Shown here piece after piece: positions 3,726-22,879 of a stretch of DNA of 22,879 nt. Under the pieces are notes generated by a model. That model was given only the letters and a program-made list of their open reading frames with translations. It had not been told where the DNA came from and searched no databases. Both the position numbers and the translations under genes were made by a program. The DNA is from a virus. How positions within the stretch are numbered: the first letter of the stretch is position 1; the number at the start of each line of letters is the position of its first letter. The stretch spans positions 1 to 22,879 of the IMG/VR virus record IMGVR_UViG_3300020220_000363; one strand, 5' to 3'.

Positions 3726-4280
3726 ATGGTGATGAATGGTGATTATCTGGCCCCGATCCCAGACACGGTGGGTAGTTGGGTTTGGCGACAACATAGTGCC
3801 AGGCGTGCGCTGGATGACGTGGTTGCCGATCTGGAGCGACGGTGGGGGTTTGAGCGGCTGCCGCGTCTGGTGTCGCCGGAGTTGCGGGAACGGTTTGTGG
3901 GCGCCCAGGATATGCACCGGCAGGCGACCATGGCTGGCGAGGATATGGCGGAGATGGACGCCATGATGATACGGGCATGGCGGGCCTTGGAAGCGGAGGC
4001 CGTTTCACGCGGGGAGACGGAGTTGCCCGGGGCCGTGGTGATTTGGCAGGCGGAGGAGCCAGAACGGGGGACCATCTGCCTGTGCCTGGATGACGAACAC
4101 GCGCAGGCGTTGCTGGCGAGGGCGAAGGCGGAAGGGGTTAACGTGGAGACTTGGACGCTGGCGGAGGTTGGGCGTGTCGTGAAGGCGGTCACGCCACTAG
4201 CGGAAATTAAGCAGGCTTTCCCGGGGGCGACTGTGCAGGGTAAAAGGAAGCCGTTTCCGGTGGATGAGATACCGATATGA
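3726..4280 (+). CDS. Conserved-looking phage protein, function unknown
   Basis: A 184-residue protein starting MVMNGDYLAPIPD; the GGGAGGGAG run at about 3709-3717 supports initiation at 3726 or at ATG 3732. It is soluble and mostly helical in its first half: LDDVVADLERRWGFERLPRL, then VSPELRERFVGAQ and a Met/Ala-rich helix. The second half has a beta-alpha pattern (GAVVIWQAEE, TICLCLDDEHAQALLARA, VETWTLAEVGRVV). I cannot name a family or a catalytic motif. It overlaps the next gene by ATGA, so the two are likely translated together. It is the first gene after the repeat region and before the late block, which would suit an accessory or regulatory role, but that is inference. Confidence 0.7.
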   Translation: MVMNGDYLAPIPDTVGSWVWRQHSARRALDDVVADLERRWGFERLPRLVSPELRERFVGAQDMHRQATMAGEDMAEMDAMMIRAWRALEAEAVSRGETELPGAVVIWQAEEPERGTICLCLDDEHAQALLARAKAEGVNVETWTLAEVGRVVKAVTPLAEIKQAFPGATVQGKRKPFPVDEIPI

Positions 4281-4771
4281 GGCGTAAAGGTAGGACAGGG
4301 CCAGAAGGCGATATAGGGCCGCCAGAGGGCCTTAAAACGGGCGCTGTGGTGGTTTCCTTTGGGCCTGATGTGGATGACCCAAATAAGACTGTACGGCGGG
4401 CTAAGAGGGTTTGGGCGCCTGATACGCTGCTGAGTAAGGGCGCCATTACTGCGGCGCACCATGCGGCGGCTTGTCGGTATCTGGATCAGTATCAGCGCGG
4501 GGTGTTGGGAGCGGGCAAGAATCGGTCTGTGGTGCCGATGCAGCGGAGTGTGGGGCCTGGCGGCTATCAGGAAACGCAACTTGCGGCGATGAAGGCATTT
4601 CGGGAAGCAGAGAAGGTGGTTGGCCTTACACTTGCGCCAGCCTTGGCGTGGTGTGTTCTGTCACACGGAACAGTGTCAGGCTGGGCGGAATGTAAGGGGT
4701 GGAACGCTCACAAAGCGGCTGGGTTTGTGGTGGCGGCCTTGGATCGGTTGGCTGAGCATTATGGAATGTAA
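4277..4771 (+). CDS. Hypothetical protein with a DUF6456-like C-terminus
   Basis: A 164-residue basic protein whose ATG (4277) overlaps the previous stop. The N-terminal 45 residues are polar and Lys/Arg-rich. The middle (ITAAHHAAACRYLDQYQRG) and the end (WNAHKAAGFVVAALDRLAEHYG) resemble the helical layout of DUF6456-type alphaproteobacterial proteins, in which a C-terminal helix ends in LD-x-L-A-x-HYG. That resemblance is from memory and weak. The family has no settled biochemical role, although a DNA-binding or transcriptional function would fit a gene just before the late region. A long non-coding stretch follows it. Confidence 0.55.
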   Translation: MRRKGRTGPEGDIGPPEGLKTGAVVVSFGPDVDDPNKTVRRAKRVWAPDTLLSKGAITAAHHAAACRYLDQYQRGVLGAGKNRSVVPMQRSVGPGGYQETQLAAMKAFREAEKVVGLTLAPALAWCVLSHGTVSGWAECKGWNAHKAAGFVVAALDRLAEHYGM

Positions 4772-4774
4772 TAA

Positions 4775-4808
4775 TTCCAAAAATCAGGGCAATTTCAAAA
4801 ATCAGAGC
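4775..4808. repeat. Tandem 16-bp direct repeat, 18-bp period
   Basis: TTCCAAAAATCAGGGC (4775-4790) and TTTCAAAAATCAGAGC (4793-4808) match at 14 of 16 positions, with CAAAAATCAG exact in both. The pair starts just after a stop codon at the head of a 345-bp non-coding region. Two sites less than two helical turns apart would suit regulator binding, but no protein can be assigned. Confidence 0.4.
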
Positions 4809-5042
4809 CGAAATTTTTCCCGTTAAAATTGGTTTTTCTAACTAAAGCCTAGACAGGGGTAGTTTTGTAACAGAACCGAGCAAGGCTGCGCCATTGGGCG
4901 GAATACCACCATTTTTTGACAAAAACCGGCAGCCGCATCAAAGCGCGCTATCAAATGCACAATAAGCAAACACCGTGCCGAAAAAGCGCGATTTATAGGG
5001 CAGCGCGCGCATATTTATTTTGCGTGAAGTGATATTTTTTTC

Positions 5043-5070: not shown

Positions 5071-5116
5071 TCTCACCTGGCAGCGCATGGGGCGCGCCTA
5101 TGTGGGAGAAAGTATC

Positions 5117-5200
5117 ATGTGGGAAATTATTGGGAATGTTCTGGGGGGCGCCATTTGGGCAGGGTTGGTTTGGGCGGCTTTTGTGGTGGTGGGGGGCTAA
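5117..5200 (+). CDS. 27-residue single-pass membrane micropeptide
   Basis: ATG at 5117 is preceded by GGGAG at 5104-5108, eight bases away, the best ribosome site in this region. The 27-residue product begins MWEIIGNVLGG and then continues as one hydrophobic segment (about residues 4-27) rich in Gly, Ala, Val and Trp, enough for one membrane span. It has no cleavable signal-peptide layout. Its TAA (5198-5200) is four bases before the ATG of the gp88-like gene. Small hydrophobic phage peptides can be holin-like, superinfection-exclusion or membrane-anchoring factors; none is proven here. The same bases read in another frame would extend the gp88-like gene upstream, but the ribosome site favours this frame. 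Confidence 0.55.
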   Translation: MWEIIGNVLGGAIWAGLVWAAFVVVGG

Positions 5201-5204
5201 GGAA

Positions 5205-5945
5205 ATGGAAAATCGCATTTTTAGCTTTGATTCTGCCAAAGCCATAAAAGCGCATGGCTTTGGTTATTTAAACGCAATTCACTACATGGCGCCCGCCGAT
5301 GTGGCAGGGGTGGGGAATCTCTGCCCCAAAGCCACTATCGGTTGCCAGGAAGCATGCTTAGGCTGGTATTCCGGCCAAGCAGGAATGGTGGCCAATGATG
5401 CAGATTTGAATAACGTACGGAAAAGCAGGATTCAGAAAGCGCAGCGTTTCATGAGAAACCGCGCCGCATATATGCGCGACATGGTGCGTTCAATTCAATT
5501 GGCCGAGAAGAAGGCGCAGCGCATGGGCTTGAAGCTTTGCGTTCGGTTGAACGGTTCAACCGATATTTCATGGGAAGGTTTAAAGGTGGAGGCCTATGGG
5601 CTTTCACATCAGAATATCATGGCGGTTTTTCCTCATGTGCAATTTGTCGATTATACGAAAATCGCATCTAGGCTAGATCGGCCATTGCCTGCCAATTATC
5701 ATCTAACGCTATCCCGCACCGAATCTAATGATTCGGCTGTGATTAAGTTAGTGAAGGCTGGCCGTAACGTGGCCGTGGTGTTTGACGCGTTACCTGAAAG
5801 GTGGAATGGCTTGCGTGTTATTGATGGGGATAAGCACGATTTACGCCATTTGGATCCTAAGGGCGTTATTGTTGGATTGACGCCTAAGGGGCGGAAAGCC
5901 AAGCGGGATAAATCCGGGTTTGTTGTGCGGGGGGTGGCAGCGTGA
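5205..5945 (+). CDS. gp88-like protein (GP88/DUF7227-type), function unknown
   Basis: A 246-residue protein read from ATG 5205 (MENRIFSFD). An upstream ATG at 5100 would add 35 Trp/Gly-rich residues that overlap the micropeptide and look non-native. Hallmarks of the phage gp88 family are visible: LCPKATIGCQEAC with Cys 40, 47 and 51; RLNGSTDISWE at 114-124; FVDYTK at 147-152; and a C-terminal VIDGD...GVIVGLTPKG segment. The family is widespread in phages without an agreed function. The C-x6-C-x3-C cluster may bind a metal or Fe-S centre, which is inference. AAGGA (5199-5203) sits almost against the start, so initiation probably relies on ribosomes finishing the micropeptide. The next gene overlaps by GTGA. 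Confidence 0.72.
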   Translation: MENRIFSFDSAKAIKAHGFGYLNAIHYMAPADVAGVGNLCPKATIGCQEACLGWYSGQAGMVANDADLNNVRKSRIQKAQRFMRNRAAYMRDMVRSIQLAEKKAQRMGLKLCVRLNGSTDISWEGLKVEAYGLSHQNIMAVFPHVQFVDYTKIASRLDRPLPANYHLTLSRTESNDSAVIKLVKAGRNVAVVFDALPERWNGLRVIDGDKHDLRHLDPKGVIVGLTPKGRKAKRDKSGFVVRGVAA

Positions 5946-7083: not shown

Positions 7084-8634
7084 ATGGCAGGCCGTCCCAA
7101 ACGCAGAGCAAGATTAGCAGCCGAGGCCGCAGCCAGAGAGGCAGCCGAGGCCGAAGCCATGGCGAATGGCGAAGCCCCGCCCCCGCCGCCACCCCTGCCA
7201 CCCGGTCCCCCGCCACCCAAGACCGAGTCGTTCGACGCCAAGGCGCAAGCCGAGATTATTGAGCGTTTGGCGCAAGACCCGGTTCTCTTTGTCGAATCGA
7301 TGCTTGGTGCCAAGCCGCAAAAGTGGCAGGCCGAGGCGTTGAAGGCGATTGCCAGCAAGGACCGTGTGGCGATTCGCTCAGGCCATGGCGTCGGCAAAAC
7401 GGCGTTCCTGTCTTGGCTGGTGTTGTGGTGGTTGCTCACGCGTATGCCCACCAAGGTGGTCTGCACCGCCAACACGGCGCACCAGTTATCGGATGTGCTT
7501 TGGTCGGAGATTGGCAAGTGGCACCGTCAGTTACCCGAGGGGATGCGACGGCTGCTGGAGATCAAGTCAGACAAGATTGAATTGACTGGCGTTCCCGACA
7601 GCTTTGCTGTGGCGAGAACCAGCCGGCGCGAACAGCCCGAAGCCTTACAAGGCTTTCACAGTGAGAACCTGTTGTTTGTGATTGATGAAGCTTCTGGCGT
7701 CCCTGATGTGGTGTTTGAAGTGGGGCAGGGCGCCCTATCAACTGAGGGCGCCAAGGTAGTAATGACTGGCAACCCCACCAGGGCGAGCGGGTATTTCTAT
7801 GATGCGTTCACTAAGAATCAGAAGCGGTGGTGGGGCAAGAAGGTTAGCTGCCATGATGCGGAAACGGTGGATAGGGGTTTCTTGGATGAGATGGCCGCGC
7901 AATATGGCGATGGTTCAAACCAGTACCGGGTGCGGGTATTGGGAGATTTCCCTGCTGGTGACGATGATGCGCTGATTGCGCGGCATTTGATTGAAGCGGC
8001 GAAGAGTAGACAGGTGGAACAATCGCAAACGGCGCCTGTGGTCTGGGGGTTGGACGTTGCGCGGTTTGGTGATGACGCCAGCGCATTGGCAAAACGGAAA
8101 GGTAATTCGCTGATTGAGCCTGTCCGTGTATGGCGCGGCAAAGACCTGATGGAAACATGCGGTCTTATCAAGATGGAATGGGACGCCACCCCCGGATCAA
8201 TGCGCCCAATTGAAATCATGGTGGACGTTATCGGCTTGGGCGCCGGGGTAGTGGATCGCTTGCGTGAATTGAATCTCCCCGTCCGTGGCGTCAATGTTGC
8301 GGAGTTGCCCGCGATAGATGGAAACCGCTTCCAGCGTCTGCGGGATGAATTATGGTGGAAGGCCCGCGAATGGTTTGAGGCGCGGGACTGTGTGGTGCCG
8401 AATGATGATAGTTTTGTGGATGAATTGTGTGGCCCGTTGTATAGTGTGACCAGTGGGGGCAAAATTCAGATTGAGCCAAAGGCGCAGATGAAACGCAGGC
8501 TTGGTAGGTCGCCGGACAAGGCGGATGCGTTTTGTTTAACCTTTGCGGGTGTCGCGGCGGCTGTGTCTGGGTCTGGCGGGTATTCTGCTCGTTGGGGCCA
8601 GCCGCTTCGAAGGGCGGTAAAAGGGGTGGTGTGA
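7084..8634 (+). CDS. terL: Terminase large subunit (ATPase/nuclease)
   Basis: A 516-residue packaging motor. The N-terminus is Ala/Arg-rich and then carries a poly-Pro segment (about residues 32-45), an unusual linker. The ATPase has Walker A SGHGVGKT (99-106), Walker B LLFVIDEAS (196-204) with catalytic Glu 202, and coupling motif TGNP (228-231). The RNase H-like nuclease has GLDVARFGDD (322-331, Asp 324), Asp 381 in VDVIGLGAG, and SPDKADAF (476-483), giving the usual acidic triad. By family it pumps DNA into the prohead through the portal and cuts the concatemer. ATG at 7084 has only GGAG 13 bases upstream. Its TGA overlaps the next ATG (TGATG). Confidence 0.96.
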   Translation: MAGRPKRRARLAAEAAAREAAEAEAMANGEAPPPPPPLPPGPPPPKTESFDAKAQAEIIERLAQDPVLFVESMLGAKPQKWQAEALKAIASKDRVAIRSGHGVGKTAFLSWLVLWWLLTRMPTKVVCTANTAHQLSDVLWSEIGKWHRQLPEGMRRLLEIKSDKIELTGVPDSFAVARTSRREQPEALQGFHSENLLFVIDEASGVPDVVFEVGQGALSTEGAKVVMTGNPTRASGYFYDAFTKNQKRWWGKKVSCHDAETVDRGFLDEMAAQYGDGSNQYRVRVLGDFPAGDDDALIARHLIEAAKSRQVEQSQTAPVVWGLDVARFGDDASALAKRKGNSLIEPVRVWRGKDLMETCGLIKMEWDATPGSMRPIEIMVDVIGLGAGVVDRLRELNLPVRGVNVAELPAIDGNRFQRLRDELWWKAREWFEARDCVVPNDDSFVDELCGPLYSVTSGGKIQIEPKAQMKRRLGRSPDKADAFCLTFAGVAAAVSGSGGYSARWGQPLRRAVKGVV

Positions 8635-8792
8635 TGAAAGAAATCTGGGACAAGAACCGGCCAAAGGATTTGCCGAAACCCAAGAAGTTGTCGCCAGCCA
8701 AGAAGGCTGCGGCAATGTCTCGGGCGAAGGCAGCGGGGCGCCCGTATCCTAATCTTATCGATAATATGATGGCGGCGAAGAAGAAGAAGTGA
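8634..8792 (+). CDS. Lys-rich 52-residue phage protein
   Basis: ATG at 8634 overlaps the terL stop (TGATG). The product has 52 residues with many Lys and Ala: KPKKLSPAKKAAAMSRAKAAGRPYPNLIDN and a final poly-Lys. It looks like the short basic proteins found beside terL in several environmental phages, whose role is unknown. A nucleic-acid or capsid-interior binding role would fit the charge, but that is inference. Its stop overlaps the GTG of the next gene (GTGA), which supports it being translated. Confidence 0.75.
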   Translation: MKEIWDKNRPKDLPKPKKLSPAKKAAAMSRAKAAGRPYPNLIDNMMAAKKKK

Positions 8793-9394
8793 AGTATTAT
8801 TGTATTTCGCTGCGGGAAACGCCTGAGCGCACGGCGCGGGTGCAAAAAGAGTTTGAGCGCGAGGGTGTGCCGGTAACTTGGGTCTGGGGTGTGTATGGTA
8901 AATCCATGCAGATCAAGTCAGAGATACCCATGCACTCGGATTATTATGTGACCCGTGGTGCGACTGCTTTGGTGCTTAGTCACCATTTCGCCTGGAACAT
9001 GGCGCAGCATGACGGTGCTGATGAGTTCATGGTGTTTGAAGATGATGTGGTGTTGCCAGAGAACTTCTTGGCGAAATGGGCCGCCATTCGCGCCAAGGTT
9101 CCAGATGATGTGGATGGCGTTTATTTGCAGAGTTGTTGTGTGGATGATCAGAAGTGGAAGCAGAAGTTCCACGATGAATTATATGATGTGAGGTATCCGC
9201 TTTGTACGGCGGCGATTTGGTGGCGGCAGCGTGCGATTCCGACATTGGTGGAGCATACGAAACCGGCGAATACGCCGGTTGATATTTTGTTGGAGCAAAA
9301 GACGCTGCGGCACTTGAAGGTTTTGACGGTGTTGCCGGAGTTGGTCAGCCAGTTGACGTTACAGGGCAAAATGTCGAGCGAGGTTCACGCATGA
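8789..9394 (+). CDS. Glycosyltransferase family 25-like protein
   Basis: A 201-residue protein starting with GTG at 8789, overlapping the previous stop. The N-terminus YCISLRETPERTARVQKEF matches the opening of GT25 (LPS beta-galactosyltransferase-like) enzymes. The middle has RGATALVLSHHFAW, the GA-x-x-x-SH signature. FEDDVVLP (about 83-90) carries the acidic motif that binds the metal and nucleotide sugar. By family it moves a sugar, often galactose, to a glycan or protein. Donor and acceptor cannot be read from the sequence. It opens a three-gene cassette with a methyltransferase and a beta-propeller protein, all with overlapping starts. It is somewhat short for the family but keeps the core. 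Confidence 0.75.
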   Translation: MKYYCISLRETPERTARVQKEFEREGVPVTWVWGVYGKSMQIKSEIPMHSDYYVTRGATALVLSHHFAWNMAQHDGADEFMVFEDDVVLPENFLAKWAAIRAKVPDDVDGVYLQSCCVDDQKWKQKFHDELYDVRYPLCTAAIWWRQRAIPTLVEHTKPANTPVDILLEQKTLRHLKVLTVLPELVSQLTLQGKMSSEVHA

Positions 9395-9948
9395 GCATGG
9401 AACATTTGGGTGGCTATTATGAGGAAGGCGATGGGCATACGTTCACGCCGGATATTTGGGGCTGGTTGTTGGTGGAATATGGGATTGAGTCTGTGCTGGA
9501 TATTGGGTGTGGCACGGCGGTCAATCTGAAGTGGTTTCAGGACATGGGGTGCAAAATACTTGGGGTAGAAGGGCATCCCGATGCGGTGGCGAAGGCCAAG
9601 TGTGGCCCGATTATTATGCACGATTATACCAAGGGGCCGTTGGCGTTGGGCCAGCGGTTTGACTTGTGTATTTCGACAGAATTTGTTGAGCATGTGGACG
9701 CCCAGTATGAGGCGAACTGGTTTGCCACCATGCAATCAGCGGATCGTGTTTTGATGTGTCATGCGGTGCCGGGGCAGGGCGGGCACCATCATGTGAATGA
9801 GCAAACGGCGGAATATTGGATAGAGCGGTTTGGTCAGAATGGGTTTCGGAACTTGGTGGTTGAGAGTGCCATGTTTCAGGAAACCACTAGCCGGAAGCCT
9901 GCGCCTTGGGGCCGCAATACGCTGATGTTATTTGAGCGTGTGGTATGA
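9391..9948 (+). CDS. Class I SAM-dependent methyltransferase
   Basis: A 185-residue protein whose ATG overlaps the GT25 stop (ATGA). It has a full small-molecule-type Rossmann methyltransferase core: motif I VLDIGCGTA (35-43), acidic strand-2 end GVEGHP with Glu 60, an acidic residue in MHDYT near 78, and motif IV-like ISTEFVEHV (94-102). The C-terminal part holds GGHHHVNEQTAEYWIERFG, typical of Methyltransf_11/23-type enzymes. There is no target-recognition domain and no DPPY/NPPY or PCQ motif, so a DNA base methyltransferase is unlikely. The substrate is more likely a sugar, lipid or protein, in line with the neighbouring glycosyltransferase. Substrate is inference. Confidence 0.85.
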   Translation: MSMEHLGGYYEEGDGHTFTPDIWGWLLVEYGIESVLDIGCGTAVNLKWFQDMGCKILGVEGHPDAVAKAKCGPIIMHDYTKGPLALGQRFDLCISTEFVEHVDAQYEANWFATMQSADRVLMCHAVPGQGGHHHVNEQTAEYWIERFGQNGFRNLVVESAMFQETTSRKPAPWGRNTLMLFERVV

Positions 9949-10838
9949 GACTGGCGGAGCATCCAGCAGCGAAGCTGGTGGAGATTAAGCTGCCATCTAT
10001 GATGGCGGCTTGTAACCCATCGATTGCGCTGGATGGTGACCGTATTCGGGCGGTTGTGCGAACGGTGAACTATCGGTTGCTGCCTACGGGTTCTATTTGG
10101 ATCAAGGGCAGCGGGCCGGACACGGTAAATTGGTTGGTTGATTTGGATGCCCAGACACTGGAGCAGAGCGAAACTATTCAGATTGATGATAGTGTTATTC
10201 GGGCAGCGCCAATGGCGTCGAATGGCCTGGAAGATATGCGGCTGTTTGCTTGGCGCGGTGGTTGGTGGGGGTTGGCGAGCGGGTATTGTGGGCGAAATGA
10301 CGCCAATACGATGATTTTGGCGCCCGTTGCGCCGGTTATGGATCGGAAGGTGGTGCTGTTATCGCCAACAGGGGAGAGGAAGGAAAAGAATTGGGTTATT
10401 TGCACCATAAATGGCGAATTATACGTCATTCATTGGATTAGTCCTATTTCTGTCTATAAGTATGCCGGTAATCAAATGCTGGAACCTGTGTTTTTTGGTG
10501 ATGCTCATAAGGATTTGATGGGGTGGAGTGGTTCCAGCCAGGCGATTCCCTATAATGGCAAGCTATTGGCCTGTATTCACCGCCGTATGGGCGAAAAGTG
10601 TGGGCGTGATCCAATAACCTATGTGCATAGATTGGTTGAAATAGACCCGGACACTTGGGAAATCGGGCGTTTGTCGCCCATTTTTGCGTTTGAGGGCGAT
10701 CAGGTGGAGTTTAATTCTGGGCTATCAGTGACCAGTGATAATGTGTTATTTAGTTATGGTGTCAAGGATTGCGCCGCAGTGGTGTTAAGATTGCCGATTG
10801 ATGCGGTGGATCAGATATTTAAGGGGCAGTTGGTATGA
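9945..10838 (+). CDS. Five-bladed beta-propeller, glycosidase-like (GH130/GH43/GH32 superfamily type)
   Basis: A 297-residue protein overlapping the methyltransferase stop. Recurrent motifs match the propeller proteins related to GH130 mannoside phosphorylases and GH43/32/68 enzymes: NPSI (24-27), VRTVNYR (38-44), LEDMRLF (95-101), EKNW (147-150), GSSQ (196-199), YVHR (226-229), EFNSGLS (255-261) and SYGVKDC (270-276). Similar proteins occur in viruses and near glycosyltransferases. It may hydrolyse, phosphorolyse or transfer a sugar, or just bind one. The usual catalytic Asp in the ED-x-R-L blade is replaced by the sequence EDMRL, which is common in this group. Exact reaction unknown; fold assignment is from motif memory. 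Confidence 0.68.
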   Translation: MRLAEHPAAKLVEIKLPSMMAACNPSIALDGDRIRAVVRTVNYRLLPTGSIWIKGSGPDTVNWLVDLDAQTLEQSETIQIDDSVIRAAPMASNGLEDMRLFAWRGGWWGLASGYCGRNDANTMILAPVAPVMDRKVVLLSPTGERKEKNWVICTINGELYVIHWISPISVYKYAGNQMLEPVFFGDAHKDLMGWSGSSQAIPYNGKLLACIHRRMGEKCGRDPITYVHRLVEIDPDTWEIGRLSPIFAFEGDQVEFNSGLSVTSDNVLFSYGVKDCAAVVLRLPIDAVDQIFKGQLV

Positions 10839-11143
10839 AGTCGCCTGCCTGGACCCGGAAAGCCGGTAAATCAGCAAGTGGTGGTTTGAATGAGGCCGGG
10901 CGCCGGTCTTATGAGGCGGCTAATCCGGGTTCTAACCTGAAACCTCCGGTGAAGTCTGGCGATAACCCCCGCCGCGCCAGTTTTTTGGCGCGTATGGGTA
11001 ACATGCCCGGCCCGGAGCGTGACGCGAAGGGCGAGCCAACGCGCTTATTGAAGTCTTTGCAGGCATGGGGGGCATCCAGCAAGGCGGATGCGCGGGCAAA
11101 GGCGAAGGCTATTTCTTCTCGTAACAAGGGGAAGTCCAAATGA
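10835..11143 (+). CDS. DUF6321-like small basic protein
   Basis: A 102-residue Lys/Arg-rich protein starting at ATG 10835 overlapping the previous stop. The order AWTRKAGKSASGGLNEAGRR, a Lys-Pro-Pro-Val-Lys stretch, then NPRRASFLARMGNMPGP and KSLQAWGASSKADA is the pattern of DUF6321-type phage proteins. The family is recurrent in environmental phages and has no known activity; its charge and lack of hydrophobic segments suit nucleic-acid or virion contact. It is coupled to the genes on both sides by 4-base overlaps. Confidence 0.75.
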   Translation: MKSPAWTRKAGKSASGGLNEAGRRSYEAANPGSNLKPPVKSGDNPRRASFLARMGNMPGPERDAKGEPTRLLKSLQAWGASSKADARAKAKAISSRNKGKSK

Positions 11144-11457
11144 GCCGCCAGATGAAGGACGATACCGGGCATGTTATTGCCCAGGTATTCGAGATGGATG
11201 GCACGCACGTTATCAGCAATCCATCCACCAGCACGCAAACGCCTGCCTTTGGCGCGCAAACAACGGCGGTTCGGGTCGCAACCACAGGCAACCATGTGCA
11301 TATTGCTATCAATGGTGATCCTACTGCCACCACCAACAGCACGATGTTGCCGGATGGGTGGGTGGAGATTTTTGCGGTGAAGCCTGGCTGGAAGTTGGCG
11401 GCGATCAAAGGTAGTGGCGCTGGTAGTCCGGTTATCTCCATTACGGAGTTGGTTTGA
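11140..11457 (+). CDS. Small beta-rich, probably virion-associated protein
   Basis: A 105-residue protein overlapping the previous stop by ATGA. The sequence is Thr/Ala/Gly-rich and alternates in a beta pattern: VRVATTGNHVHIAING, then LPDGWVEIFAVKPGWKLAAI and a terminal VISITELV. Such short beta proteins before the portal are common in environmental phages and may be decoration or fibre components. I do not recognise a named family. No signal peptide, membrane segment or catalytic motif is visible. Confidence 0.65.
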   Translation: MSRQMKDDTGHVIAQVFEMDGTHVISNPSTSTQTPAFGAQTTAVRVATTGNHVHIAINGDPTATTNSTMLPDGWVEIFAVKPGWKLAAIKGSGAGSPVISITELV

Positions 11458-11924
11458 TGAAGTGTCCGAAGGCCACTTATGATCTCAAAGAAAACCTGGA
11501 ATACCGCGACCGGGCGTTCAAGGATTTCGGTTATGGCCCGGCCAATCCGAATAGTGAGGATGATTACTTTTGGCGTTTGCGTGCTGATGAATGGAATACT
11601 TCGCCAGAGGAAGCGAAGGGTATGCGGTGTGGTAATTGCTCCGCGTTCATTCAGACCCCAGAGATGATGGCGTGCATTGTTAAGGGCATCCAGGGGGAAG
11701 AAAGTAACGATGAGACGTATGCGCCCGAAGTTAGTAAAGCGGCGAATTTGGGGTATTGTGAATTGTTGGAGTTCAAGTGCGCGGCGGATCGGACTTGTTC
11801 CGCGTGGTTGGTGGGTGGCCCGATTAAGAAGGCTTTGAGTGGCCGCCAGCGTGATATGGTGTTGATGGCGAAGGCCATGATTCCGCCGATGCGTGAAGGG
11901 GCGGAAGATGAGGAAGAAGATTGA
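11457..11924 (+). CDS. Cysteine-rich late protein with HiPIP-like spacing
   Basis: A 155-residue protein from ATG 11457 (TGATG overlap). Seven cysteines are present: C3, C58, C61, C73, C101, C108 and C114. MRCGNCSAF gives C-x2-C, and the last is in TCSAW, a C-x2-W end. C-x2-C, then Cys, then C-x-x-W is the order in high-potential iron-sulfur proteins, though the long gap between the third and last Cys is unusual. A structural zinc site is the alternative. The C-terminus is very acidic (GAEDEEED). It sits in the head operon before the portal. Fe-S or Zn binding is inference from the cysteines. Confidence 0.65.
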   Translation: MKCPKATYDLKENLEYRDRAFKDFGYGPANPNSEDDYFWRLRADEWNTSPEEAKGMRCGNCSAFIQTPEMMACIVKGIQGEESNDETYAPEVSKAANLGYCELLEFKCAADRTCSAWLVGGPIKKALSGRQRDMVLMAKAMIPPMREGAEDEEED

Positions 11925-12754
11925 TGAAAAGCGTTACCGCGCCGCGCAATCTGAAGATCAAGGGCCAGGATCATATGCTGGCTTACATTACCGCCAAAGA
12001 GGCTGCGCTGTTGAAGGCGCGCGGTGGTTCCGGGCGCATGACTGAGCATGGCGTCAGGGCGTATAACGAAGGCCCTGGTGGCGACCCTAGCGACAATGCC
12101 AATTCAATGTCTGAGTCGGCCACCCAAGATGCTGTTGGCGGCAACATGGGCCAAGGCGCTGGCCCTACTGGGGCTGGGGCTGGTTCTGGCCCTCCAGGCG
12201 ACCCTGACCCTAGCTCTAATGAAGACGCGGGGAATGTAGAGGCTACAGCGCAACAGGTAGGGCCGTTATCATTCAGTGCGCCTTTTGGTGTGTTTGACGC
12301 TAGTCGCGGGATGGGTGTTATTGGTGGGTTGGCTAGTTTAGGGCTTGGTGCTCCTGGCCTTGGAGTGGGTTTGTCTGCGATTGGGGCTGCTATAGATGCC
12401 CAGAAGGCCCAAGACCAACTTGATCAAATGGGCATACAGGCGAACATAAGTACTCCCCAAGCTGTGGCGAATGCTGCCTCTATTGGCGCATTAGGTCAAA
12501 GTGCTGTCAATCAATTTGGAAATGCATTGGGTTTTGATGCGTTTGCAGAAGCCCCTATGAGTGCTACGTTTGGGGCGCCTGATCCTCTCGGGGATATTGC
12601 CGCGTCTCAAATGGATTCTGGTGGCGCTGACCAAGGTTTGTTAGATGCAGTTCCGCCCGTTGAATTGCCTAGCGCGGTTGGTTCTTTGCAAAAGCCGCGC
12701 TATCAGATTGTGAATAATACGCTTGTTCCTGTTCCTTCCGGTTTGCTGGGGTAA
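11924..12754 (+). CDS. Gly/Ala-rich probable structural or internal virion protein
   Basis: A 276-residue protein from ATG 11924, with GAGGAAGAAG just upstream as ribosome site and a TGATG overlap. The N-terminal part (MLAYITAKEAALLKARGGSG then a Gly/Asn-rich stretch) matches a motif I associate with phage structural proteins of environmental podoviruses. Residues about 60-110 are low-complexity Gly/Ala/Pro/Asp. The middle has a Gly-rich hydrophobic stretch (GVIGGLASLGLGAPGLGVGLSAIGAA), which could insert in or cross a membrane. That would suit an ejection protein, but it may also be packing within the virion. Position immediately before the portal supports a head role. No family is certain. 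Confidence 0.6.
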   Translation: MKSVTAPRNLKIKGQDHMLAYITAKEAALLKARGGSGRMTEHGVRAYNEGPGGDPSDNANSMSESATQDAVGGNMGQGAGPTGAGAGSGPPGDPDPSSNEDAGNVEATAQQVGPLSFSAPFGVFDASRGMGVIGGLASLGLGAPGLGVGLSAIGAAIDAQKAQDQLDQMGIQANISTPQAVANAASIGALGQSAVNQFGNALGFDAFAEAPMSATFGAPDPLGDIAASQMDSGGADQGLLDAVPPVELPSAVGSLQKPRYQIVNNTLVPVPSGLLG

Positions 12755-12760
12755 TCAGAT

Positions 12761-14950
12761 ATGGACCCGAAGATTTCCGATTTGGTTTCCGAAGTAACTG
12801 ATATGATGCAGGAAGCCGCGATTGATGCTGGCATGGATACTGATTTGCCGGATGAGATTGATATTCAGGCGATTGTAGCTGGCGAGATTGAAGACGCTGT
12901 TGATTATATCGACAGTGTGATTTCGCCAGACCGGGCGCTTGCTACTCAGTATTACCGTGGCGAGCCATTTGGCAATGAGGAGGATGGCCGGTCACAGGTA
13001 GTTAGCCGTGATGTGCGCGATACGGTGCAGGCGATTTTGCCAAGCATGATGCGTATGTTCTTTGGTGGCACTAACATTGTTGAATTTGCGCCAAATGGCC
13101 CTGAAGATGTGGCGGCGGCCCAGCAAGCAACGGATTATATCAATTATGTGGTGACCCGCGATAATCCGGGTTTTGAGATTTTCTATTCCGCGTTCAAGGA
13201 TGCCTTGGTTTGCAAGACAGGGATTATCAAGTTCTATTGGGACGCGGCGGAAGAGGTTGAAACGTCTGACTTGTCTGGGCTGGATGAGACTGCCTTGGCG
13301 GTTCTCAATTCTGATCCGGAATTAGAAGTGCAAGTAACGGTGGCGTATCAGGGGGACGTTGACCCGGCTACGGGTATGCCTGGCCCAACCGTTTATGACG
13401 TTCGCGTAATCCGCCGCCGTGACAAAGGGCGCTTGCGGATTGCGTCTGTTCCGCCTGAAGAGTTCTTGGTCAGCCGCGCAGCGATTAGCCTGGATGATGC
13501 GTCTATCATTGCCCACCGCCGTATTATGACGGTAAGTGAATTGGTGGCGATGGGTTACAGTGAAGAAGAGATTGAACCATACGCCAATGAAGTCGATGAA
13601 CTGGAGGACAACGAAGAACGGTTTGTTCGTAATCCCCAGGCCACAATTGATTTTGCCAATCGGTCTGATGTTGCGGCGAAGAAGGTTTTGTATGTCGAAG
13701 CCTATGTAAAGATCGACATGGATGGCGATGGCATCGCTGAGTTGCGTAAGGTTTGCACGGTTGGCGGTGGTTATGAGGTGGTTCGGAATGAACCAGCTGA
13801 TATGATCCCGTTTGCTGTGTTCTGCCCTGATCCGGAACCCCATACCTTCTTTGGTATGTCTGTGGCGGATCAGGTTATGGATATTCAACGGATTAAGTCG
13901 AATATCCAGCGCAATATGTTGGACAGTTTGGCGTTGGCGATCCACCCGCGGGTTGGCGTGGTTGAAGGCCAGGCCAATATGGATGATGTGTTGAATACTG
14001 AAGTTGGTGGCGTCATTCGTATGCGCGCCCCTGGTATGGTGCAACCTTTCGCTATGCCGTTTGTTGGTCAGCAGGCGTTCCCAATGCTGGCTTACATGGA
14101 TGAAATGCGGGAGAACCGCACAGGTATCACCAAGGCTGCTTCTGGTTTGGCGGCTGATTCGCTGCAATCTTCCACCAAGGCTGCGGTGGCTGCTACGGTT
14201 TCGGCGGCCCAACAGCGCATGGAGTTGATTGCGCGTATCTTTGCCGAAACGGGCATGAAGCGCCTGTTTGGTGGTTTGCTGCGGTTGGCGATCCAGAACC
14301 AGCGTCCTAATCGCATGGTTCGGCTGCGCGGGCAGTTTGTTCCGATTGATCCGCGAGGCTGGGATGCCAATATGGATGTGGTTGTTAATGTGGCGCTTGG
14401 CGGCGGCACGGATCAGGAAAAGGTTCAGGTTCTTACTACGGTTTTGGCGAAACAAGAGCAGATTTTGCAATTAGCGGGTATGAATAATCCGTTGGTAAGC
14501 CTTTCTCAGTACCGTAATACGCTGGCGCAGATTTTGGCGTTGTCTGGCTTTAAGGACGCGGATCAGTTCTTCAGCGATCCGGCCATGATGCCACCGCAGC
14601 CGCCGCAACCGCCAAAGCCTTCGCCGGAAGAAATGCTAGCCCAGGCGCAGATGGCGGCAATCCAGGCGGATATTCAGAAGAAGGCGGCAGAACTAGATTT
14701 GAAGCGTGAAGAGATGATCCGAAAGGATGATTTGCAACGCGATCAGTTTGAGGCTGACTTGATGGTGAAGATTGCGGAAATGCAGGCCCGTTATGGCGCG
14801 CAGATTGATGTGGCGGCGATCCGCGCCAATATGGAGCGGGACCGCGAAATGATGCGCCAGCAGGCAATGCAGCGCCAGCAGATGATGGCGCCCCCACAAG
14901 TGATGGGCGCTAACATGGCGCCTGGTGGAATGGGTGGCCCAATTGTCTGA
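12761..14950 (+). CDS. Portal protein
   Basis: A 729-residue protein, in the size range of P22/SU10-type portals. RSQVVSRDVRDTV (77-89) and LPSMMRMFFG (93-102) are the recognisable start of this portal family, followed by the wing and stem regions. Residues about 620-715 form a long charged, Gln/Met-rich helical or coiled-coil extension (LAQAQMAAIQADIQKKAAEL and onward), as in portals with a barrel. By family it forms the dodecameric ring at the capsid vertex through which TerL packs DNA and to which the adaptor binds. ATG at 12761 is six bases past the previous stop; the ribosome site is weak, so coupling is likely. Confidence 0.9.
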   Translation: MDPKISDLVSEVTDMMQEAAIDAGMDTDLPDEIDIQAIVAGEIEDAVDYIDSVISPDRALATQYYRGEPFGNEEDGRSQVVSRDVRDTVQAILPSMMRMFFGGTNIVEFAPNGPEDVAAAQQATDYINYVVTRDNPGFEIFYSAFKDALVCKTGIIKFYWDAAEEVETSDLSGLDETALAVLNSDPELEVQVTVAYQGDVDPATGMPGPTVYDVRVIRRRDKGRLRIASVPPEEFLVSRAAISLDDASIIAHRRIMTVSELVAMGYSEEEIEPYANEVDELEDNEERFVRNPQATIDFANRSDVAAKKVLYVEAYVKIDMDGDGIAELRKVCTVGGGYEVVRNEPADMIPFAVFCPDPEPHTFFGMSVADQVMDIQRIKSNIQRNMLDSLALAIHPRVGVVEGQANMDDVLNTEVGGVIRMRAPGMVQPFAMPFVGQQAFPMLAYMDEMRENRTGITKAASGLAADSLQSSTKAAVAATVSAAQQRMELIARIFAETGMKRLFGGLLRLAIQNQRPNRMVRLRGQFVPIDPRGWDANMDVVVNVALGGGTDQEKVQVLTTVLAKQEQILQLAGMNNPLVSLSQYRNTLAQILALSGFKDADQFFSDPAMMPPQPPQPPKPSPEEMLAQAQMAAIQADIQKKAAELDLKREEMIRKDDLQRDQFEADLMVKIAEMQARYGAQIDVAAIRANMERDREMMRQQAMQRQQMMAPPQVMGANMAPGGMGGPIV

Positions 14951-17247: not shown

Positions 17248-17553
17248 ATGACTGAGAAGATTTTCGATATTGACCCGCTAACTGGGATCAAGTCGGTTTG
17301 GCATTATGATGATGCCACGGATACGGCTTTCATTGAGAAGCGCCAGGACGTTACCGCTATTGTGGAGGCAAACAAGGCGGAGATGAATAGCGACCATGGG
17401 CGTTATGGCGAGTGGAACAAGGTGGCGACCATCCCGCTTAGCGTTTACTATGATTTAAAGATGAAGGGCATCGCGGATGATCCGGTTGCCTTTAAGAAGT
17501 GGTTGAATGATCCGGACAATATGTATTTCCGCACCAGGCCGGGGCGCGTTTGA
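17248..17553 (+). CDS. Conserved small phage protein after capsid
   Basis: A 101-residue protein from ATG 17248. The middle and C-terminus (IPLSVYYDLKMKGIADDP, then KKWLNDPDNMYFRTRPGRV) follow a pattern seen in small proteins next to the major capsid gene of many podo- and environmental phages. Function is not known; position suggests a head or head-tail part. The N-terminus DIDPLTGIKSVWHYD is a short beta hairpin-like stretch. The stop overlaps the next ATG (TGATG). Confidence 0.75.
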   Translation: MTEKIFDIDPLTGIKSVWHYDDATDTAFIEKRQDVTAIVEANKAEMNSDHGRYGEWNKVATIPLSVYYDLKMKGIADDPVAFKKWLNDPDNMYFRTRPGRV

Positions 17554-18179
17554 TGCGGAATACGATTTCAGTCTGTGTCCCTTGCCGGGATGTTGTGGAT
17601 AGCGGGTTTGCCTTTGATCTTGCCCGCTGTGTGGCGGCCCATACGGCTTCCACCAATGACCGGGTTTTATTGTTCCAGAACCAGGGGACGTTGATTGTAA
17701 ACCAGCGCCAGGAACTGGCGCAGGCATCTTTGGATGCGGGGGCTACGCATATCGTGTTTATTGACGCGGATATGCGGTTTCCGAAGGATGCGATCTTTAA
17801 GTTGCTGATGTCCGGCAAAGATATTATTGCCGCTAATTACTGCACAAGAAAGTTGCCTTTGCGGTCTGTGGCGTTTGCGGATGATGAAACCCAAGAGCGG
17901 GTATATTCCGGCCCGGATGATACAGGGATTCAGTCTGTAGCAGCGGTGGGTATGGGCCTTATGGCGATCAGGGCTGAAGTTTTCGAGAAGATGCCGAAGC
18001 CTTGGTTTCACATCCATTATCAAAATGGTGTATATAGTGGCGAAGACATTTGGTTTTGCCGGGGCGCGCGGGAAATGGGGTTTGAGGTATTTATAGACCA
18101 CGATCTTAGCCAGGATGTGCGCCATTCGGGGGTGTTTGAGTTTTCCAATGCCCATGCGTTTGCAGCGAGGGATCAGTAG
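17553..18179 (+). CDS. GT2-like glycosyltransferase in the head gene cluster
   Basis: A 208-residue protein from ATG 17553, overlapping the previous stop. The N-terminus ISVCVPCRDVVDSGF is the first beta strand of a GT-A fold. Residues around 49-75 (VNQRQELAQASL and then THIVFIDADMRFP) contain a D-x-D (71-73) for metal and nucleotide-sugar binding. GEDIWFCRGAREMGFEVFIDHD near the C-terminus is the acceptor-side/catalytic segment usual in GT2-like enzymes. Its place between capsid and adaptor genes suggests it may glycosylate a virion protein, but the acceptor is not visible. It is unrelated in sequence to the GT25-like gene upstream. Confidence 0.78.
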   Translation: MRNTISVCVPCRDVVDSGFAFDLARCVAAHTASTNDRVLLFQNQGTLIVNQRQELAQASLDAGATHIVFIDADMRFPKDAIFKLLMSGKDIIAANYCTRKLPLRSVAFADDETQERVYSGPDDTGIQSVAAVGMGLMAIRAEVFEKMPKPWFHIHYQNGVYSGEDIWFCRGAREMGFEVFIDHDLSQDVRHSGVFEFSNAHAFAARDQ

Positions 18180-19211: not shown

Positions 19212-20285
19212 ATGGCTTTCGTAATCGCTGATCGGGTTAAAGAAACTTCGACCAGTACCGGAACGGGTAATTTTACCCTAGCTGGTGCGGTTACGGGCTT
19301 CCGTGCCTTTTCTTCTGTGCTGTCTTCTAGTGACACAACTTATTATACAATTGCTGAACAAGGCGGGACCAATTGGGAAGTTGGAGTTGGGACATTTACA
19401 TCCCCTTCTACTTTGGCCCGTACAACTATTTTGTCTTCCAGTAATTCTGGAAATGCCGTTAATTTTGCGGCTGGCACAAAAGATGTTTTTATTACTTTAC
19501 CGGCTGCTAGAACGGTTCAATCTGTTGATGGTGGTACTACTGGTTTAACGCCATCAACCGCTTCTTATGGTTCTATTACTTTAGCTGGTACGCTGGTTGC
19601 GGCTAACGGCGGAACGGGCCAATCATCATACACAACTGGTGATTTGCTTTATGCTAGTGGCTCTACGGCACTCTCTAAGTTGGCTGGTGTGGCCACTGGG
19701 AATGCACTCATTTCTGGCGGTGTTGGGACTGCGCCATCTTATGGTAAAATCGGTTTAACAACACATATTAGCGGGACGTTACCAGTCGCAAATGGTGGTA
19801 CTGGGACAACAACAGCATTTACAACTGGTTCTGTTGTTTTTGCTGGGGCGTCTGGCGTTTATTCACAAGATAATGCGAATTTATTTTGGGATGATACTAA
19901 TAATCGGTTGGGTATTGGTACGGCAACGCCAAGCACGGCTTTGGATGTAAACGGCACTATTCGGGATAGTAAGGGTGATGTTCGTACTGTTGTACAGAAC
20001 TCCCAGACTTCTGCTTATACATTGGTTGTTGGAGATGCTGGTAAGCATATCAGTATCACTACTGGCGGTGTTACTGTTCCTGCTAGTGTGTTCAGTGCTG
20101 GCGATGCGATTAGTATTTACAATAATAGCACTAGTAATCAGACGATTACCCAAGGCGCTAGCGTAACTATGTATCTTGGGGGAACCGCCACAACGGGTAA
20201 TAGAACCTTGGCGCAGCGCGGTATTTGTACTGTGTTGTGTGTAGCTTCTAACACGTTTGTTATTTCTGGCGCTGGGGTTACCTGA
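19212..20285 (+). CDS. Tail-fibre-like repetitive structural protein
   Basis: A 357-residue Thr/Ser/Gly-rich protein from ATG 19212. The N-terminal part (FVIADRVKETSTSTGTGNF and TNWEVGVGTF) is an attachment-type domain often found at the start of phage fibre proteins. The middle contains the repeated VAANGGTG and VANGGTG motifs of beta-helical fibres, then LFWDDTNNRLGIGTATPSTAL, a motif also common in tail fibre and adhesin stalks. The C-terminus is beta-rich. It probably forms an elongated trimeric fibre or its adaptor. The coding sequence is more A/T-rich than the head genes. Confidence 0.72.
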   Translation: MAFVIADRVKETSTSTGTGNFTLAGAVTGFRAFSSVLSSSDTTYYTIAEQGGTNWEVGVGTFTSPSTLARTTILSSSNSGNAVNFAAGTKDVFITLPAARTVQSVDGGTTGLTPSTASYGSITLAGTLVAANGGTGQSSYTTGDLLYASGSTALSKLAGVATGNALISGGVGTAPSYGKIGLTTHISGTLPVANGGTGTTTAFTTGSVVFAGASGVYSQDNANLFWDDTNNRLGIGTATPSTALDVNGTIRDSKGDVRTVVQNSQTSAYTLVVGDAGKHISITTGGVTVPASVFSAGDAISIYNNSTSNQTITQGASVTMYLGGTATTGNRTLAQRGICTVLCVASNTFVISGAGVT

Positions 20286-21142
20286 TGACTATTCAGCAGA
20301 TGTTTTTATCAACTTCTGCGGCTGCTGGCGCTCCGACTGCGGTTGAATATTTAGTTGTCGCTGGTGGCGGTGGCGGTGGCGGCAATCGTGGCGGTGGTGG
20401 AGGCGCCGGAGGATTTAGAACAGCCAGTGGTTTTTCTGTAACTGCTGGAAGTGCAATTACAGTAACAGTTGGTGCGGGAGGTAGCGGAGGTCCGTCAGAT
20501 CAAGGAGCAACGGTTGCATCAAAAGGAAGTAATTCTCTTTTTTCTACAATAACATCAACTGGCGGCGGTGGTGGTGGTAGAAATTCTGCTGGCGCCGCCG
20601 GGGGGTCTGGTGGGGGCGGTGGCTCCAATGTTGTTGGCGCTGGTGGCGCAGGTAATCAGGGGGGATATTCTCCAGCAGAAGGTAATAATGGGGGCGGTTC
20701 TCGCGATAATTCCCCAAATTATCCTGGTGGTGGTGGCGGTGGTGCTGGCGCTGCTGGAACGACACCCGCAAATGGCAGTGCGATAGGTAATGGTGGGAAC
20801 GGTTTATCATCTTCAATTTCTGGTTCTTCTGTAACTTATGCAGGGGGTGGAGGAGGTAATTCTTATTCTACTAATCCTGGGGGAACAGGGGGGACAGGTG
20901 GTGGTGGACATGGGGGGGATGCAAATAATTCTGGTTTAACTGATGGTGGTACAAATACTGGTGGTGGAGGCGGCGGGGCAAATGATGGGTTTGGTGGTGG
21001 TAAGGGCGGTTCCGGTATAGTGATTATTCGTTATGCTGATTCTTTCACCGCAGCTACAGCAACCACAGGATCACCAACAATTACAGTTTCAGGGGGATAC
21101 CGTATCTATAAATGGACAGGTTCCGGCTCAATCACATTCTAA
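20285..21142 (+). CDS. Glycine-rich tail fibre/tip-type protein
   Basis: A 285-residue protein overlapping the previous stop by ATGA. After about 20 residues, VEYLVVAGGGGGG begins a long Gly-rich region, with several runs of four or more glycines, matching the phage Gly-rich domain family. It ends SGIVIIRYAD and then a short beta domain (GGYRIYKWTGSGSITF). Gly-rich domains of this type form polyglycine-II-like bundles in some phage adhesins. A paralogue starts at 22389. It is likely an adhesin or fibre tip; receptor unknown. Confidence 0.75.
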   Translation: MTIQQMFLSTSAAAGAPTAVEYLVVAGGGGGGGNRGGGGGAGGFRTASGFSVTAGSAITVTVGAGGSGGPSDQGATVASKGSNSLFSTITSTGGGGGGRNSAGAAGGSGGGGGSNVVGAGGAGNQGGYSPAEGNNGGGSRDNSPNYPGGGGGGAGAAGTTPANGSAIGNGGNGLSSSISGSSVTYAGGGGGNSYSTNPGGTGGTGGGGHGGDANNSGLTDGGTNTGGGGGGANDGFGGGKGGSGIVIIRYADSFTAATATTGSPTITVSGGYRIYKWTGSGSITF

Positions 21143-22388: not shown

Positions 22389-22879
22389 ATGCCCACAGCG
22401 ATCACACATGGCGCCATGACAGCCCGTGCTTTTGGGTTGTTTACGGGTAATATTGTCACGCCAAGTTTTGAATATTTGATTGTTGCGGGTGGTGGTGCGG
22501 GTGGTACGCCAGCCGGGGATGGTGGTGGTGGTGGTGCGGGTGGTATGAGAAGCGGAACTTTTAGTTCTGTTGTTTACAATAATGCCTATACTGTAACTGT
22601 TGGCGCTGGTGGTTCGGCTGGTAACGCTGATGATGCGATTGCGCCCACAAACGGGTCTAATTCACTAATATCTTCAGTTGTAACATCCACAGGCGGTGGT
22701 TTTGGGGGGTATCTTAATAGAAATGTTGCCCAAAAAGACGGCGCAAATGGCGGGTCTGGTGGTGGTGGTTTAGGTAATAATGGCGGAGGCGCTGCCGGTT
22801 CTGGAACTGCTGGTCAGGGTAATAATGGCGGTACAGGTTTTGATAACCCAGCATCTGGACAGCATAGTGGTGGTGGTGG
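22389..22879 (+). CDS. Second glycine-rich fibre protein (3' partial)
   Basis: ATG at 22389 opens a frame without stop to the right edge, 163 residues so far. After 26 residues FEYLIVAGGGAGG starts a Gly-rich domain like VEYLVVAGGG in the 20285 gene, followed by YTVTVGAGGSAG and a Gly/Asn-rich body. The weak GGTAAG just upstream (22381-22386) may be the ribosome site. The two Gly-rich genes look like paralogues from a duplication, now diverged. The C-terminal part, which should carry the receptor-binding segment, lies outside the window. Confidence 0.72.
   Translation, partial: MPTAITHGAMTARAFGLFTGNIVTPSFEYLIVAGGGAGGTPAGDGGGGGAGGMRSGTFSSVVYNNAYTVTVGAGGSAGNADDAIAPTNGSNSLISSVVTSTGGGFGGYLNRNVAQKDGANGGSGGGGLGNNGGGAAGSGTAGQGNNGGTGFDNPASGQHSGGG

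Follow-up and report, generated by a model that had tools for sequence, protein, structure and literature searches.

In the literature consulted, glycosylation of the virion has been described for mycobacteriophages (PMC4351075, PMC11600133, PMC12363180). In the cluster O (Corndog-type) mycobacteriophages, an O-methyltransferase and three glycosyltransferases are encoded between the portal and the protease, and the authors of that study suggested that the enzymes of this cassette modify the capsid (PMC4351075). The same enzymes are cited as modifying both capsid and tail tube proteins (PMC11600133, PMC12363180), and Corndog gp38 is there called essential for capsid glycosylation (PMC12363180). 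The other described enzymes with a bearing on this locus are those of GH130, whose characterised members are mostly phosphorylases or hydrolases, told apart by phosphate-binding residues in the former and a second carboxylate in the latter; GT108 belongs to the same fold-sharing clan, and the fold also serves mannosyltransferases (PMC8950772).

The window analysed here is a whole virus record of 22,879 bases, from a phage which, according to family matches, encodes an SU10-type portal together with major capsid and adaptor proteins. Between terL (7084-8634) and the portal gene (12761-14950) lie three ORFs, found on checking to be complete and on the plus strand: those of a GT25-family glycosyltransferase (8789-9394, 201 aa, GTG start), a class I SAM-dependent methyltransferase (9391-9948, 185 aa) and a beta-propeller enzyme with a predicted GH130/GT108 fold (9945-10838, 297 aa). 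This cassette is coupled to terL by a 52-aa basic ORF (8634-8792, plus strand) which, from a reading of the sequence, overlaps the stop codon of terL as well as the start of the GT25 gene. Downstream follow the gene of a DUF6321 protein (10835-11143, plus strand; PF19846, 2.9e-24), an operon neighbour for which we make no sugar-enzyme claim, and three small genes, one at 11140-11457 for a candidate decoration protein and two with starts at 11454 and 11921, the last of which (11921-12754, 277 aa, directly before the portal) has its place taken by a gene of 428-541 aa in several relatives (L006, L008, L009). The 4-base overlaps which the initial annotation had seen to link the three genes between terL and portal are indeed present (GTGA at 8789; ATGA at 9391, 9945 and 10835, the last between the propeller and DUF6321 genes). 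The same type of overlap joins the small genes between propeller and portal, and as such overlaps run through the entire operon they mark the operon as a whole rather than the cassette alone. The cassette thus shares both operon and direction with terL and the genes of the portal and capsid; start-stop overlaps occur along the whole operon, and no signal for a promoter or terminator of its own exceeded the expectation from shuffled sequence.

The Corndog-type gene order was checked in the records of Firecracker and Catdawg, standing in for Corndog. The sets there (Corndog gp35-gp38, Firecracker gp33-gp36) resemble the window cassette in that methyltransferase and glycosyltransferase genes stand in tandem, with start-stop overlaps, in the head operon, and in that each cassette includes one GT25-like glycosyltransferase; Firecracker gp36, the last glycosyltransferase of the cluster O set and syntenic with Corndog gp38, matches PF01755 at 2.9e-5. 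However, the Corndog-type sets hold several glycosyltransferases and no propeller, they lie between portal and protease rather than between terL and portal, and their methyltransferase is of the TylF/Methyltransf_24 type whereas that of the window is of the Methyltransf_11/23 type. Beyond the shared GT25-family match, no significant BLASTP or profile similarity was found between the window cassette and the Corndog-type sets. The window cassette thus most likely works like the Corndog-type system but does not belong to it; its strategy would most likely be the virion decoration already known from some mycobacteriophages, carried out by a differently composed enzyme set. A second lineage whose head-operon cassette has just a GT25-type enzyme in common with the known one would point to more than one origin of head-coupled glycan decoration.

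The GT25-like enzyme and the class I methyltransferase lacking DNA-methylase motifs, both proposed initially, are supported by profile searches. The glycosyltransferase matches PF01755 over residues 2-126 (Pfam, E 7.6e-14, 52.5 bits against a curated cut-off of 24) and the PHROGs glucosyltransferase family phrog_2835 (8.3e-11), with weak matches only among PDB sequences, to GT25 8xlz (E 0.018); its acidic E/DDD-type motif, FEDD (residues 83-86), is invariant in an alignment with eight relatives. The methyltransferase passes the cut-offs of both PF08241 (2.8e-8) and PF13489 (2.7e-8), and its SAM motif (motif I, DxGCGTA) is likewise invariant in aligned relatives. The best sugar-related match of this enzyme in NCBIfam (E 0.066) falls far short of the cut-off, and against the PDB it finds sugar N-methyltransferases at a weak E of 0.022. 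Some phage glycosyltransferases act on DNA (cited in PMC12619734), and the two enzymes might be supposed to modify phage DNA or RNA and so counter host nucleases. We give this very little credence, since a motif check found none of the DNA-methylase motifs NPP[FY], DPP[YF], SPP[YF] and PCQ in the methyltransferase, and the family matches obtained, a non-exhaustive set, included no recognisable base-hydroxymethylating gene. Enzymes of the GT25 or GH130 type are, moreover, not known to us to glycosylate DNA.

Bacterial GT25 enzymes are best known from LPS synthesis, according to the Pfam description of the family, and temperate phages alter the serotype of their hosts via glycosyltransferases (cited in PMC12619734). 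Both would fit a cassette which changes LPS or glycan precursors in the cytosol during infection and thereby blocks superinfection, or the sticking of phage to debris. Around the bacterial relatives of this phage's methyltransferase, neighbouring genes include GT2 (3/43) and LptF/G (2/43), which would point the same way; with FkbM (2/43) and otherwise housekeeping genes among these 43 neighbours, the neighbourhoods are mixed and were dropped as support. Such a modification of the host surface, the chief rival reading, is nevertheless unlikely in our estimation, as the cassette genes are inside the head operon and translationally coupled to it, and the cassette contains no flippase, polyprenyl transferase or other membrane-anchored partner. 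No strongly hydrophobic, membrane or secretion-signal-like segment was seen in the three cassette proteins, which suggests that the enzymes are cytosolic.

The propeller was recognisable only through structure and family alignment, since scans with its own sequence returned no significant family in Pfam, NCBIfam or PHROGs and no match to PF04041. On sequence profiles it is accordingly not filed as a GH130 member; 16 of 38 phage homologues match PF04041 weakly, the best at 4.3e-5. An AlphaFold model built from the alignment of these 38 homologues (pLDDT 90.9, pTM 0.90) was compared with PDB structures using Foldseek and VIA-align. Its best match is GH130 9fj8 (Z 24.9, rmsd 3.0 A, 265 residues aligned), and after the GH130 matches come the Leishmania GT108 mannosyltransferases (Z 19.5) and GH43 enzymes (Z no higher than 19.5); the mannoside synthase 9erg is also found. 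Judged from the model, the propeller is a GH130/GT108-fold enzyme, closer to GH130 than to GH43, in agreement with the GH130/GH43-type propeller of the initial annotation. The structural comparison, made for this protein of the three only, thus leads to sugar enzymes. An apparent identity as 6-phosphogluconate dehydrogenase (phmmer against the PDB, E 0.015) was rejected as spurious because of poor alignments, and a profile comparison with a single GH130 protein from Chitinophagaceae was informative for the last blade only.

With the GH130 beta-mannoside phosphorylases (Teth514_1788, BfMGP, Uhgb_MS) the window protein shares a five-bladed propeller (Z 22-25 over ~265 residues), and both the E-D-x-R motif and the last-blade motif align. 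However, identity is ~15%, the PF04041 match is missing, and a glutamate, E255, stands where two aligned phosphorylases have Val; this Glu is invariant across the phage propellers and is a candidate for a family-specific catalytic residue. The GDP-mannose-dependent GT108 mannosyltransferases of Leishmania (MPT-1, MPT-2, MPT-4) share the fold (Z 19-19.5), although the structural score is lower than with GH130. Also invariant in the 38 phage homologues are EDxR (96-99), KNW (148-150), H212, Y226, H228 and D275, so that the acidic motif residues, whose loss would have spoken against the enzyme, are kept throughout. The EDxR aligns with the EDPR of the solved phosphorylases 9fj8 and 7fip, and the Asp within this E-D-P-R-type motif we take to be the proton donor. 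A literature search turned up no relevant description of a GH130 or GT108 enzyme from a phage, with a coverage too incomplete to establish absence.

As the nearest solved structures are phosphorylases, the propeller could be a true phosphorylase or hydrolase which breaks host beta-mannosides, for removal or salvage, with the glycosyltransferase and methyltransferase serving otherwise. We regard this as improbable. The GH130/GT108 fold is also used by mannosyltransferases (PMC8950772), a mannoside synthase is among the structural matches, and a hydrophobic segment resembling a secretion signal was not seen. The chemistry of the propeller would instead be that of a transferase, and its relatives bear on the same question. 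A search with the propeller found more than 550 viral loci with relatives; the fusion partners of several distant ones are GT25 (L033), GT17 plus a methyltransferase (L068), an FkbM methyltransferase or radical SAM/SPASM domains. The gene directly downstream of propeller homologues is often that of a TPR protein, DUF6445, an FkbM methyltransferase or GT25, and GT17 genes also adjoin them. Such fusions and adjacency to glycosyltransferases and methyltransferases argue for the building of a glycan rather than its degradation, and are the strongest sequence evidence for it.

In some phages the homologous propellers have received names, namely beta-mannosyltransferase (Synechococcus phage DSL-LC02, Actinomycetia phage DSL-LC01) or MGP protein (S-SCSM2R), with 24-26% identity to the window propeller over 87-97% of its length, and those of DSL-LC02 and DSL-LC01 adjoin methyltransferase genes. 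However, these are larger phages, and their propeller genes lie close to tail-fibre or metabolic genes instead of in the terL-portal interval. Across viral metagenomes the family is common, with fusions to numerous modifying domains, and PHROGs and Pfam hardly give it a name; learning its reaction would thus annotate hundreds of phage genes at once. An unusual phage architecture is seen in L049, L057, L072, L037 and L075, where the propeller is fused to radical SAM/SPASM, in some cases with an intervening FkbM methyltransferase domain. One Rhodobacteraceae MAG (Water_Bin34) has three contigs (L164, L167, L168) that each encode a distant propeller, and no GT25 relatives were found at 1e-10 in 289 genomes of the class which contains the L164 genome; the distant matches in this and other MAGs do not reveal the host of the phage.

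Closer relatives were sought with the propeller, portal, GT25 and methyltransferase as queries, and their genes were mapped by tblastn. All three cassette genes were found in 24 distinct contigs, in the order GT25-methyltransferase-propeller in every one. Thirteen contigs span the distance from terL to portal; the trio is present in 11, a few of which nearly duplicate the window or one another, and the propeller alone in two (L022, L023), where it begins as soon as terL ends. In the records of these two, profile searches found neither GT25 nor the methyltransferase. The three genes thus do occur together in related phages, but the trio is not obligatory and the propeller can act without the other two, which speaks for a phosphorylase or hydrolase. 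Extra genes stand upstream of the cassette in L006 and L020 and downstream of it in L007 and L020, and in none of these is it split. In L006, an insertion between terL and GT25 (4021-4671) resembles a DNA-methylase gene and has a DPPYG motif; in L020, what appears by eye to be an endonuclease-VII-like ORF (4372-4836) separates the small ORF from GT25, with the cassette intact.

Selection was estimated as dN/dS (Nei-Gojobori) against relatives other than the closest, at a dS of ~0.7 to 2. Values of 0.05-0.08 for GT25 and 0.035-0.09 for the methyltransferase reveal a constraint equal to that on terL and the portal, whereas the propeller (0.16-0.21) evolves two to three times faster, yet under purifying selection. 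The gene order kept in 24 contigs, together with the low dN/dS, indicates that the cassette is not a product of chance. The interval which it occupies is another matter: in five contigs with portals 52-55% identical, other genes or nothing at all are found between terL and portal, and among the nearest named phages phiM5 has a peptidase there, two Manatee Spring phages hypothetical proteins and HTVC106P no gene. As content differs in this way among relatives, the interval is a variable accessory slot, occupied in the clade of the window, a family of uncultured phages, by a stably kept cassette. The initial annotation had considered a position in the core late operon to be unusual; it is less so than proposed, and no support was found for an exceptional placement, given the variability of the slot and the Corndog-type sets between portal and protease.

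Four long relatives with the cassette, the records of which may be incomplete, yielded neither a tyrosine nor a serine integrase. This suggests a lytic lifestyle, weakens the case for lysogenic conversion and counts further against a modified host surface. The propeller-only relative L023 (record G001) has a tyrosine integrase at 1264-1665.

Taken together, we put at about one in two the probability that this is a cytosolic, glycan-building cassette which is expressed late, with the head genes, and decorates the virion with a methylated sugar. This reading draws on the position in an operon with head genes, the joint conservation under selection, the fusions and neighbours of homologues, the cytosolic enzymes, the Corndog-type precedent and the lack of a detected integrase in the four long relatives. 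The GT25 enzyme would add a sugar from a nucleotide-sugar donor, starting or extending a glycan on an acceptor, most likely a protein of the virion; the propeller, of GH130/GT108 type, would extend or remodel the glycan with a beta-linked sugar, presumably of mannose type; and the methyltransferase, placed last in this presumed order, would cap what we infer to be a sugar hydroxyl. The decorated surface of the particle may then alter the encounter between virion and host surface, or shield the virion. Of the initial proposal that the phage builds such a glycan, the enzyme types, their linkage and the building role stand, the last through the propeller fusions and the Corndog-type precedent, whilst the exceptional placement is not supported. 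This reading should be considered with caution, as the propeller-only relatives, the link of GT25 to LPS, a methyltransferase without a sugar-specific family and the predominance of phosphorylases and hydrolases in GH130 count against it. More tentatively still, and with some doubt, it is possible that a large, essentially unnamed phage propeller family uses the GH130 phosphorylase fold as a GT108-like virion-protein glycosyltransferase, which together with GT25 and a methyltransferase builds a previously unseen methylated, beta-linked glycan on the head.

A second glycosyltransferase-like gene of the window (17550-18179, plus strand; phrog_1574, 4.3e-22; the glycosyltransferase phrog_12406, 1.5e-6; weak Anp1) is located between the major capsid region and the SU10-type adaptor. 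The propeller-only lineage has it too, as do the examined relatives with the full cassette, and it may act in the same pathway as the cassette, as a possible partner. At the corresponding position, phiM5 encodes a GDSL/SGNH hydrolase and the Manatee Spring phage ctyzp037 a putative glycosyltransferase. Elsewhere in the window, a Gene product 88 family protein (5100-5945; PF17338, 1.4e-35) is encoded upstream of the terminase genes, and the tail region encodes glycine-rich proteins at 20285-21142 and 22389-22877, the first of which belongs to PF21722 (2.2e-25).
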